Positions 13,690-17,329 of a stretch of 64,000 bases of DNA are shown in pieces. The notes below the pieces were generated by a model. It had not been told where the DNA came from. It did not search any database and worked only from the letters and a program-made list of their open reading frames with translations. Within the stretch, counting starts at the first letter, position 1. Each line of letters opens with the position of its first letter. The stretch lies in the NCBI RefSeq assembly GCF_000022145.1, contig NC_011891.1, forward strand, positions 1,624,001-1,688,000, read 5' to 3'. Both the position numbers and the translations under genes were made by a program. Origin of the DNA: Anaeromyxobacter dehalogenans 2CP-1. GTDB taxonomy: Bacteria; Myxococcota; Myxococcia; Myxococcales; Anaeromyxobacteraceae.

Positions 13690-13908
13690 ATGGGAGAGCT
13701 GGGAATGGGCGAGCTGCTGATCATCCTGGTCGTGGTGGTGCTGCTCTTCGGGACGAAGAAGCTGCCCCAGCTCGGCGAAGGCCTCGGCAAGGCGATCCGG
13801 AACTTCAAGGACGCCGCGAGCGGGAAGGGGGGGCCGCCCGGCCCGCCCGCCGCGCAGCCGAGGGAGCTCCCGCGCCCGCCCGAGCCGCCCGCCGGCGGCG
13901 CCACCTAG
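13690..13908 (+). CDS. tatA: Sec-independent protein translocase subunit TatA
   Basis: TatA forms the pore-like assembly of the twin-arginine translocase. The 72-residue protein has the short N-terminal membrane helix ([14 protein letters not shown]), the FGxKKLP hinge ([11 protein letters not shown]) and an amphipathic helix KAIRNFKDA, then a Pro-rich tail. The ATG at 13690 gives the canonical length. It could be TatA or TatE; no tatC is in this window. Its stop codon shares the bases CTAG with the stop of the convergent gene. Confidence 0.93.
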
Positions 13909-14129
13909 CCCCGCGAGCCGCCCGGGCCCTGGGCCGGCGCCTGCGCCTCGCGCGGCCGGTAGAAGATCACGATGCTCAGGCAGTGGAACTCGTCGTCGCT
14001 CGACTGGGAGACGACGCGGTCCACCACCTCGACGTCGTTGGACCGAAGCCAGCGCGTGACGGTCTCGCCGAGCTCCTCGCGCTCCTTGGCCTTGGTGGCG
14101 GAGAAGACCTTCACGCCCGTGAAGTGCAT
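13905..14129 (-). CDS. Conserved hypothetical small protein, 74 aa
   Basis: I do not recognise the family. The 74-residue protein begins [20 protein letters not shown], has a helical segment with [18 protein letters not shown], a strand-like [10 protein letters not shown] and a Pro/Gly tail. Its alternating pattern resembles small alpha/beta proteins of the DUF4177 kind, which is only an impression. The ATG at 14129 is preceded by GGGAGAG and fits better than the in-frame ATG ten codons upstream. It converges on tatA with stop codons that share bases. Confidence 0.65.
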
Positions 14130-14344: not shown

Positions 14345-14605
14345 ATGGCGAGCGTGAAGAAGGGCCACGCGGTGGACTTCATCAACCGGATCCGGACGAT
14401 GGAGTCCGCGGACCTCAACGCGCTCATCGTGCGCGAGGCCGGCGAGGAGCTGGCGCAGTTCTTCCTCTCGTACAGCGCGAGCCTCATCTCGCGCGATCCC
14501 GAGCGCGCCATCGAGAACACCTCCAGCCTGATGCTGATGGGATACCTGATCCGCGCGGCCGAGGAGCGGCGCGCAGCGGCGCCGCGCGCGTCCGCGCTCG
14601 CCTGA
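14345..14605 (+). CDS. Small helical hypothetical protein, 86 aa
   Basis: This 86-residue protein is predicted to be largely alpha-helical (HAVDFINRIRTMESADLNAL, then AGEELAQFFLSYSASLI), without signal peptide or membrane segment. A TAGATT element at 14306-14311 and a GGACGGAGG ribosome-binding site precede the ATG. The codon pattern is that of a real gene with strong third-position G+C. Function unknown. Confidence 0.65.
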   Translation: MASVKKGHAVDFINRIRTMESADLNALIVREAGEELAQFFLSYSASLISRDPERAIENTSSLMLMGYLIRAAEERRAAAPRASALA

Positions 14606-14693: not shown

Positions 14694-15494
14694 ATGCTCA
14701 TCGACCTGCACGTCCACAGCCATCACACCCGCGGTTGCGCGCTGGCGCCGCGGGACGTGGTGCGGCGGGCCCGCGAGGCCGGCCTGGACGGCGTCGCCTT
14801 CACCGATCACGACACGCTCGAGGGGCTGGAGGAGATCCGGGCCGCCGCGCGGGACGAGGGGCTGGTCGCGCTGTGCGGCGTCGAGGTGACCACCGATCGC
14901 GGCCACTTCCTCTGCTTCTTCCCCGACCCCGCCGCGGTGCCCGCGCCCGTCCAGCTGTTCGGCGCCGCGCGGCCCTGGCCCGTGCGCGAGGTGCTCGCGC
15001 GCGTGCGGCAGCTCGGCGGCGCCGCGGTGGCCGCCCACCCCTACGACAAGACCGTGGAGCGCCCCTGCGGCGACGTGGTGTTCACGCTCGACGGCCTGTC
15101 GGCGATCGAGGGGCTGAACGCGCGGCGCAAGGGACCCGCGAACGACCTCGCCATCGAGGCCGCCGATCACATGAGCCTGCCCTGCACCGGCGGCTCCGGC
15201 GCGCACGAGCTCGCCGAGATCGGGAAGGCCGCGACGCTGTTCCGCGACCCCGTGGCGAGCGAGGCGGACGTCGTCCGCCAGCTCCGCGCCGGCACGGTGT
15301 ACTGCGTCGCCGTGGGCGTGACCCCCTCGGAGCCCGATCGCGCACCCCGCGATCGCGGCGGCGAGCGAGGCGACCGCGGAGATCGCGGCGACCGGGGCGG
15401 CCACCGAGGGCACGGGCACGGCCGCGGCCGAGGGCACGGCGGCGGTGGTGGCAGTGGCGGTGGCGGCCACGGTGGCGAGCGCCGCCGGCGCTAG
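14694..15494 (+). CDS. PHP-domain phosphoesterase-like protein with Gly/Arg/His-rich tail
   Basis: Residues 1-216 form a PHP domain, a trinuclear-metal hydrolase fold found in polymerase exonucleases, histidinol phosphatase and the RNase AM (TrpH) group. Metal-ligand motifs seen are DLHVHSH, TDHDT, CGVEVT and AAHPYDK. The last one, usually SDAH, reads SGAH here, so a conserved ligand Asp is replaced by Gly. Residues 217-266 are an unusual RGD/RGG- and Gly-His-rich tail that resembles nucleic-acid-binding low-complexity segments. The ATG at 14694 gives the canonical MLIDLHVHSH start. It overlaps the stop of the convergent HNH gene by four bases. Substrate unknown. Confidence 0.82.
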   Translation: MLIDLHVHSHHTRGCALAPRDVVRRAREAGLDGVAFTDHDTLEGLEEIRAAARDEGLVALCGVEVTTDRGHFLCFFPDPAAVPAPVQLFGAARPWPVREVLARVRQLGGAAVAAHPYDKTVERPCGDVVFTLDGLSAIEGLNARRKGPANDLAIEAADHMSLPCTGGSGAHELAEIGKAATLFRDPVASEADVVRQLRAGTVYCVAVGVTPSEPDRAPRDRGGERGDRGDRGDRGGHRGHGHGRGRGHGGGGGSGGGGHGGERRRR

Positions 15495-16198
15495 GCGCCG
15501 GTCCCCGAACGCAGCTCCGAGCTCGGCCCAGGTCGCGCGAGAGCGTCTCGGCCCGAGCTGCCGCGCCGAGCGAAGGTGTACGCGTCCATCACCCGGTCCC
15601 CGAAGATCCGCCGCGCCTCCTCGAGGTTGTGCCCCCGGCAACGAATGCGAAGGTTGTCCGCGGTCGAGGTCCCGCCGCGTGCCCGTGGGACCACGTGGTC
15701 GAGCTCGAGCCGGTGCGTGGAGCCGCAGGGCTCACCGGATGGCAGCGCGAAGGTGCACCGCCCGCCGTCGCGCTTCCAGACCTCGCGGCGAACGTGGGCA
15801 GGGATGTGGTCAGGCTTCGCGGGCCGGCGGGTCTTCTGGGGTCGTGCCGTGAGCCCCGTTCGCCGCGCACGCTCCGCGAGCAACGCGTCCAGCGCCGCCT
15901 CGAGCACGCGCTCGCGCGAGGCGCCGGTCATGCCGTGCGAGAGCGCGTCGCGGGCCGCGTCGAGCTTCTTCAGGAAAGCCTTGGAGACGGTGAGGTGCAT
16001 GCGCGCCGAATCGCCGTCGAGCCAGTCCACCGAGCTGGGCTTGGCGGAAGGCGTTGCGGCGTCGGTCGCGTGGGGGACGCGCGCGGCCGGAGCGAGCGCG
16101 AGTGGGCACGCATCGGGCGGCTCGGCCCGGCTGGGTGCATTTGGTTCGGGCGCCCGAACTGGACAGGGAACCCGAATTTCGCGCTCCGTAAAACGCAC
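15491..16198 (-). CDS. HNH endonuclease, probably N-terminally shortened
   Basis: The C-terminal 100 residues form an HNH nuclease: AHVRREVWKRDGGRCTF, a second Cys, LELDHVVPRARGG and ADNLRIRCRGHNLEEAR. The segment before it (MHLTVSKAFLKKLDAARDAL) matches the linker helix I associate with larger Anaeromyxobacter HNH proteins, which carry about 200 more residues at the N-terminus. Here the first 60 residues are Pro/Ala-rich with no clear fold, so this may be a truncated copy. An internal ATG at 16000 would give 169 residues and is an alternative start. No associated methylase or phage genes are nearby. Confidence 0.75.
   Translation of the reverse strand: MRFTEREIRVPCPVRAPEPNAPSRAEPPDACPLALAPAARVPHATDAATPSAKPSSVDWLDGDSARMHLTVSKAFLKKLDAARDALSHGMTGASRERVLEAALDALLAERARRTGLTARPQKTRRPAKPDHIPAHVRREVWKRDGGRCTFALPSGEPCGSTHRLELDHVVPRARGGTSTADNLRIRCRGHNLEEARRIFGDRVMDAYTFARRGSSGRDALARPGPSSELRSGTGA
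16144..16159. repeat. 16-bp perfect palindrome near the HNH gene 5' end
   Basis: GTTCGGGCGCCCGAAC is its own reverse complement. It lies inside the first 20 codons of the annotated HNH frame, in a locally A+T-richer patch. If translation really begins at the internal ATG (16000), the palindrome would sit upstream and could be an operator. A related half-site (GGGAACCCGAA) lies about ten bases further on. Confidence 0.45.
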
Positions 16199-16630
16199 GA
16201 GGATCGCCCAGGACGCGCGAACGCGCCCAGGGCCCCGCGCCCCCTCGGCTCACGCCCGCTCGCCGCAGCGCCGCCGAGCGAGCGCGCCAGACGCCTGCCC
16301 AGCGGTGGATCCGCAGGCGCGAACTGCTCCTTGCTCGGAGCGCGTCAAGCCTTCACCCAGAGACAAACGGGTGCCCCGCGACGCCAAGCCATCCGCCGCC
16401 ACCCGCGCCCGCCGCCCCCCACGGCCTCGCGCCGCAACCGAGCCAACCGCGCCCCGCGCCCCGCCCTCGCGCTTCTCGTGAGCCGATCGCGCGCTCCCGG
16501 TTCCGGGCACGCGCAACCGCTCCCGATCCCGCCGGGCCCGTCTCAGCCAAGCCCCGCTGCCCCGGCCCGGCCACACCCGCGAAGCCGCCCCGCCGCGGCC
16601 CCCTCGACAGCCTGAAGAACCGCGGCCCCC
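16199..16630. other. Gene-free interval between HNH gene and lipoprotein gene
   Basis: No frame in this 432-base stretch on either strand shows recognisable protein content; the open frames are Arg/Ala/Pro-rich shadows. It is C-rich on the plus strand and could contain the eroded N-terminal part of the HNH gene, though I see no surviving motif. Both flanking genes are on the minus strand. Confidence 0.5.
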
Positions 16631-17329
16631 CTACCGCTGCCTCACCAGCCGCTCGACCCGGTCGTCGCGCAGGAACGCGCGCCGCTTCCCCTCGGCCCAC
16701 GACCACTCCTCGGTGCCGGCGGGCCGGTCGATGCGCTTCCGCTCGGGCACGCCCCACGCCATCTCGAGCGCGCGGGCGCTCATCCCCTCGAGCGCCTCCT
16801 TGCGCATGACCGCCTGCCGGTGCTCGGGCGGCAGCGCAGCGAACACGGCGCTCGGGTCGTCGGCGGTGAGCAGCCGCTCCAGCTCGCCGCGGACGTCCTC
16901 CAGGCTGGCGGCGGTCTGCGAGAGCACGATCACGTGCGGGCGCGAATCGCCGGCGACTTTCACGTACGCCCACGGGTGGTACCGGGGCGTGGTGACGACG
17001 CGCTGCGAGATCATCCAGCCGGTCGGCACCTCGATCTCGTCCACCCGCACCGGCGTGCCGGGCGGCAGCACGCGCTCCGCGGCCGGCGGGGCGATGGGCT
17101 CGCCGCCGGGCGTCTCCACCAGATCCACCTCGGCGGGCGGTGCGTCGGAGAGGAACACCTTGCCGGTGTCGCCCCAGAGCGGCCCCGCGTAGGCGGCCAC
17201 GCGCAGGTAGCGCTGGGCGCCGTCGAGCGAGCGCGAGATGCGCTCGCGCTCGGCATCGGGGATGGTGGCTCGGGGGGCGCACGCCGCGAGGGCGAGCAGG
17301 GCGAGGGCAAGGGAGAGGGCGCGTCGCAT
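16631..17329 (-). CDS. Hypothetical lipoprotein, 232 aa
   Basis: The protein starts with a type II signal peptide (MRRALSLALALLALAAC, lipobox LAAC, Cys17), so it is an exported lipoprotein. The mature part contains a strand-rich region (PAEVDLVETPGG, VRVDEIEVPTGW) and a C-terminal segment reminiscent of SmpA/OmlA-like domains: EALEGMSARALEMAWGVPER followed by EEWSWAEGKRRAFLRDDRV. Such domains occur in outer-membrane biogenesis lipoproteins; this is an inference from pattern. Signal peptide and lipobox are clearly visible. Confidence 0.78.
   Translation of the reverse strand: MRRALSLALALLALAACAPRATIPDAERERISRSLDGAQRYLRVAAYAGPLWGDTGKVFLSDAPPAEVDLVETPGGEPIAPPAAERVLPPGTPVRVDEIEVPTGWMISQRVVTTPRYHPWAYVKVAGDSRPHVIVLSQTAASLEDVRGELERLLTADDPSAVFAALPPEHRQAVMRKEALEGMSARALEMAWGVPERKRIDRPAGTEEWSWAEGKRRAFLRDDRVERLVRQR

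Follow-up and report, generated by a model that had tools for sequence, protein, structure and literature searches.

A candidate Myxococcota-wide lineage of degenerate PHP-domain proteins with eroded metal ligands and a basic tail

Comparison of a 266-residue protein of Anaeromyxobacter dehalogenans 2CP-1 with its phylum relatives suggests that evolution has conserved its PHP fold and its basic C-terminal tail rather than its metal chemistry. On our best reading, the protein would belong to a Myxococcota-wide lineage of degenerate PHP proteins. We further propose, tentatively and with a little less than even confidence, that it is a degenerate PHP scaffold whose tail would bind polyanions, with RNA the likeliest of them. 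The gene lies in a stretch of 64,000 nucleotides (the window, to which all coordinates refer) from a genome that forms a single contig of 5,029,329 bases.

A predicted PHP fold with a wide distribution

The gene (14694..15494, + strand) runs from an ATG at 14694 to a stop codon at 15492-15494 and comprises 266 codons. Its product exceeds the gathering scores of Pfam PHP (PF02811; residues 4-68, 44.8 bits against a cut-off of 26.4) and PHP_C (PF13263; residues 148-202, 63.6 bits against 21.3), and in an alignment of 24 family members (A2) PHP_C matched all 24 and PHP 22 at E ≤ 0.01. Orthologues share an MLIDLH-type start, and the closest among named relatives come from Anaeromyxobacter. A scan for promoters and terminators found none. 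Fold matches and a predicted model place the folded PHP/PHP_C part at residues 1-212 (14694..15329, +); the model of this part, built from seven alignment rows, has a mean pLDDT of 86.3. The full-length model, built from five rows, averages 54, with values below 50 in the tail and likewise in other parts of the protein.

Comparison of the model of residues 1-212 with database structures by VIA-align gave Z 20.2 for BAD_1165 (3e0f; 191 aligned residues, rmsd 3.0), 19.4 for 7rty, 19.0 for 3e38, 18.6 for TM0559 of Thermotoga maritima (2anu), 17.6 and 17.4 for Endonuclease Q and 16.1 for 2yb1. With Z up to 20.2, the protein is predicted to have a PHP fold, and such likeness gives no proof of function. 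The fold is also held in common with RNase AM/RNase RNM (7ug9, the RNase AM PHP domain, Z 17.6; 9etk, Z 17.2), which the sequence matches over residues 1-67. The window protein differs from these enzymes in its incomplete ligands, in having no insert domain of that size and in its basic tail, and on its 45.8 bits against the RNase RNM model (NF047791; curated cut-off 375) we reject an RNase AM orthologue. The link to RNase AM drawn in an earlier note on this DNA is correspondingly weak; another PHP protein encoded in the genome, L002, fits better, with 167 bits to RNase RNM and 201 bits to a nucleoside bisphosphatase model, both again below cut-off. The nearest curated model is instead that of the CehA/McbA metallohydrolases (NF038032), matched by all 24 members of alignment A2 at E ≤ 0.001 and missed by the window protein by half a bit (79.5 against 80), a borderline score. 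Two further structures, 6k0b_C and 3wyz, both of Rpp30 of archaeal RNase P, a PHP-like barrel used in RNA binding, appear in the fold list at Z 6.9-7.0, values that may reflect only a common arrangement. No sequence link to Rpp30 of archaeal RNase P was found.

Every one of the nine Anaeromyxobacter genomes contains exactly one match to the protein. Of 147 class genomes, 121 have a match at E ≤ 1e-10; as G141 and G142 match only weakly, and apparently to ordinary PHP proteins, the number with a strong orthologue (E 6e-40 or better) is 119. The other 26 gave no match at this threshold, and G123, G126 and G130 each have an additional match that is weak or partial. A phylum search with residues 1-212 matched 148 of 195 genomes at E ≤ 1e-8, a count that includes weak matches to ordinary PHP proteins. 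Deeper homologues, at 36-44% identity, come from 18 genomes of families f11, f12, f14, f16, f17, f18 and f19. None of the 12 genomes of family f2 matched in the class search, and the phylum search added only three weak matches there. A tblastn search of viral contigs found no relative, and no paper title among the open-access literature matches listed concerns this degenerate PHP family.

Erosion of the metal ligands

The nine metal-ligand positions of PHP proteins follow the consensus H H D/H H E H C/H D/N H (PMC3666897). Alignment to 3e0f and the family alignment place H6, H8, R13, H39, E64, H71, H115, G169 and H171 of the window protein at these positions; seven fit the consensus, and Arg13 and Gly169 depart from it. 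Gly169, where that consensus has Asp or Asn, falls in the SGAH codons (residues 168-171; 15195..15206, +) of the end motif TGGSGAHE, bearing out the earlier note, which had singled out SGAH. The same note had stated that all other ligands remain, which was wrong: the protein reads Arg13 (codon 14730..14732, +) against a consensus of Asp or His, and position 3 is therefore lost besides Gly169, in the region where the ligand alignment is least certain. The best sequence match, 3e0f, has Asp at both lost positions (13 and 169). The nine positions form three metal sites, as in YcdX: positions 1, 2, 5 and 8; positions 5, 6 and 7; and positions 3, 4 and 9. On that grouping, Anaeromyxobacter would retain the second site whole, and the Myxococcaceae pattern HHKTEQRDR would retain the first site whole with the other two lost. 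This pattern, in which positions 3, 7 and 9 each carry a basic Arg or Lys, is the commonest (62 of 130 rows).

We extended the comparison to the family, merging identical sequences into 115 distinct class sequences. Four incomplete sequences (L010, L025, L126 and L129) were dropped before the ligand alignment, and L130, a family f8 PHP protein of 29-32% identity that looks canonical, before the count of 128 members; L122 was retained although its tail looks out of frame against those of its relatives. Measured against the same consensus, no member keeps eight or nine ligands; seven are kept in 4 members, six in 18, five in 11 and four in 85, with a low end of three in 4 and two, one and none in 2 members each. 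At position 169, the 115 class sequences (L130 included) have Asp in 91 and Gly in 24; Gly is found in each of the 20 sequences of f1, the family to which the window belongs, and in four sequences drawn from f4, f7 and f9. At position 171 they have Arg in 94 and His in 12. Asp169 together with His171 occurs in none of the 128 members, which rules out an isolated strain mutation as the source of SGAH, the comparison with SDAH that the earlier note had proposed. The combination was seen in only two rows, the outgroup L019 and L130, both non-members. The HxH motif is wholly or partly lost in four f17 rows and in L031, L033 and L117. Members of f17 keep between none and two ligands, yet retain fold-type residues and long RG tails. 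As the Myxococcaceae subset differs from that of Anaeromyxobacter and f17 keeps almost none, no metal site is common to all family members.

Seven of the nine ligand positions of the window protein fit the consensus, HxH, E64, H71 and H115 among them, so catalysis is conceivable in that protein, which counts against the preferred reading. We weighed the alternative that the Anaeromyxobacter member retains enzymatic activity as a PHP phosphoesterase with one or two metals, a third site having been lost, and that the tail brings the enzyme to its substrate. H39 and the near miss to the CehA/McbA model speak for this reading. His39 is found in the window strain, L005 and L006, which sit among Anaeromyxobacter rows with Leu39 in a quick tree; their placement suggests that a lost ligand was regained, through mutation or conversion, in a tree of 64 rows with ligand columns removed that has strong support on 15 of 61 inner branches and some long branches meeting. 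The lack of a family-wide site argues against residual catalysis, as does the failure of any known PHP enzyme model to reach its cut-off, and we regard an active enzyme as unlikely, if the strongest of the alternatives. The TDHDT stretch of the protein, encoded at 14805-14819, is confined to the window strain and two of its near relatives; elsewhere in the genus these residues read TDLNT or similar.

Gene neighbourhoods

The arrangement s84(-), s86(+), PHP(+), lipoprotein-like gene(-) is broadly conserved across Myxococcia. In the window, s86, a conserved gene for 86 amino acids (14345..14605, +), lies 88 bases upstream of the PHP gene in the same direction; the divergent s84 (13905..14129, -; 74 amino acids) lies further upstream, and the convergent lipoprotein-like gene (16631..17329, -), with a lipobox-like match below cut-off, lies downstream. 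Among distinct groups with enough flank, s84 was in place in 95 of 101, s86 in 68 of 104 and the lipoprotein-like gene in 76 of 85. Beyond these loci, s86 occurs in 105 of 195 phylum genomes, including nine f2 genomes and two f8 genomes (G138 and G139) without a clear PHP orthologue, and s84 in 166 of 195, often in two copies; neither is an obligate partner of the PHP gene. Near the 18 deeper homologues, s84 was recognised twice (L174 and L177). Both encoded proteins are small and strongly conserved, s86 with the sequence FINxIRTM...ENTSSLMLMGYLIR. Neither matched NCBIfam or PHROGs at E ≤ 0.01; in Pfam, s84 had no match and s86 two below cut-off (E 0.03), and in the PDB s86 had none and s84 only matches of E 0.08 or weaker. 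The PHP protein and three neighbours had no PADLOC match at E ≤ 0.01, and a defence-system reading was rejected on that basis.

Directly behind the PHP gene, an HNH endonuclease gene (15491-16198, -) sits within an insertion of ~1.1 kb (~15496-16600). It is confined to the window strain: L136 and L013, the nearest relatives that were checked, both lack the insertion. The HNH stretch has 15 matches in its own genome: itself, nine at 74-80% identity, four at 46-53% and one fragment. These matches and the absence from the two relatives suggest that the insertion belongs to a dispersed mobile family.

Neighbours vary by family: none is common to all families and none names an RNA process throughout, which weighs against the preferred reading. 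They bear also on a second alternative, that the tail binds inorganic polyphosphate and that the protein has a role in storing phosphate or at polyphosphate granules. A co-directional gene ~34-141 bases upstream is common to all four f17 loci and encodes a ppk1-like polyphosphate kinase in the copy scanned (L188), and a Na/Pi-cotransporter-PhoU gene, scanned in L176 and with a homologue in L178, is found two genes downstream of the f19 members. In Pseudomonas, AlgP, a basic protein resembling histone H1, has been linked with polyphosphate granules (PMC9239181). Against this, the window's class has s84, s86 and the lipoprotein-like gene as neighbours instead, the two adjoining genes common to all eight f11 loci, in two orientations, encode, in the copies scanned, a short member of the TsaD family and an M50 peptidase bearing PDZ domains, and the f19 homologues near the transporter have no tail. 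We consider polyphosphate binding rather unlikely.

A basic tail kept in charge but not in sequence

Composition, codon comparison and translation mark out residues 213-266 (54 residues; 15330..15491, +) as a basic Gly/Arg/His tail of RGD/RGG, GHG and Gly-Ser units, rich in Gly, Arg, His and Asp, in agreement with the low-complexity tail described in the earlier note. Arg, Lys and Gly make up 0.72 of its last 50 residues, against 0.38 for the next best of 40 other window ORFs picked by length and codon-position GC. Every complete distinct class sequence (111, not counting L130) has a tail of at least 19 residues after position 211, with a net charge of +5 or more in 110 of them. Among the deeper homologues, 16 of 18 have tails of 45-226 residues with RG motifs. 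Both f19 homologues (204 amino acids) have none, which counts against our preferred reading. Tail style differs between groups: RGG/GHG in Anaeromyxobacter, poly-Gly GGG-KRRR or Lys-rich with RRW (KKKKRRW) in other Myxococcia, and long RGG arrays outside Myxococcia. Clustered RG/RGG motifs in a low-complexity stretch, a mark of RGG/RG-motif RNA-binding proteins, are present in the window tail, and many Myxococcia tails are K/R- and G-rich instead. Repeated segments of the D-x-GNR type close the long RGG tails of four f17 homologues (L184, L188, L189 and L190); the corresponding DNA pattern occurs at 19 places in one f17 genome (G164), and only those in the PHP gene encode a Gly/Arg-rich tail.

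As the full-length model is poor beyond the tail too, we judge from composition that the tail is probably disordered. Within the window's own genome, the RGG DNA pattern shows little excess over a reversed control (271+251 against 210+191). A search for similar tails on other RNA proteins of the genome found none; among the 12 of 15 Helicase_C proteins with their end in view, the R+K+G fraction reached 0.38 at most, and this too weighs against the preferred reading.

Across the window strain and the two relatives closest to it, the tail codons look to be under purifying selection although tail length drifts. Pairwise dN/dS in the tail was 0.14 (0.044/0.323), 0.07 (0.022/0.296) and 0.16 (0.047/0.288), against 0.03-0.06 in the body; the tail values are plain counts without multiple-hit correction, drawn from 2-4 nonsynonymous and 10-12 synonymous changes per pair on an uncertain repeat alignment. 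The three proteins are 266, 255 and 255 residues long, and tail length changes in frame only. On this small set of strains and changes, the tail does not vary at random, the possibility that the earlier note had raised. A gene drifting to loss, its ligands and tail varying under little selection, would account for the variable tail length, for the short imperfect tandem repeats inside the tail region and for the class genomes with weak matches or none; the strong orthologues in most of the class, the conserved gene order and the low dN/dS of body and tail make it very improbable. Metal loading through tail histidines, another suggestion of the earlier note, draws on the five His of the window tail and seems less probable still, given that of 112 complete tails 63 have no His, 36 have one and only 8 have three or more (seven in the window's family and one in L128).

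Discussion

We return to the preferred reading, a degenerate PHP scaffold that would act through its tail. The PHP barrel may have been retained as a folded scaffold while its three-metal site was lost piecewise, with different ligands kept in each family, so that the barrel would offer a pocket for a ligand or partner and not a hydrolytic site. What stays beside the fold is the basic, probably disordered C-terminal tail, which may grip a polyanion, RNA being the most likely. A nucleic-acid role, which the earlier note had found attractive, is plausible. A fold kept while ligands erode family by family, together with a tail kept in charge and not in letters, fits electrostatic contact with a polymer. 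A broader version is doubtful: the family would comprise, phylum-wide, PHP pseudoenzymes that abandoned the phosphoesterase site and took the disordered basic tail as their working part, organising RNA or polyphosphate, perhaps as the scaffold of a granule or ribonucleoprotein, with the f17 ppk1 neighbourhood and the GNR-type tail repeats as part of the machinery.

Among described proteins, the variant PHP domain of E. coli Pol III alpha comes closest: five of its nine ligands are replaced, position 9 is Arg and the role is described as structural, not catalytic (PMC3666897). This domain and the family studied here both retain the PHP fold with several ligands replaced and Arg at the last position (in most members here), and the ligands lost differ between the two. 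The Pol III alpha domain is part of a large C-family polymerase, whereas the window protein is a stand-alone ORF of 266 residues; by comparison, the family described here would be a stand-alone, phylum-wide protein with a tail.

A PHP domain readily earns its protein an annotation as a metal-dependent phosphoesterase, which the ligands seen in this family fail to support. With members that range from seven of nine ligands down to none, the family is a natural series for studying the passage from an enzyme fold to a binding protein, and a bacterial case of a basic tail outlasting an active site. If the proposed reading is true, myxobacteria would gain a testable RNA- or polyphosphate-binding protein.
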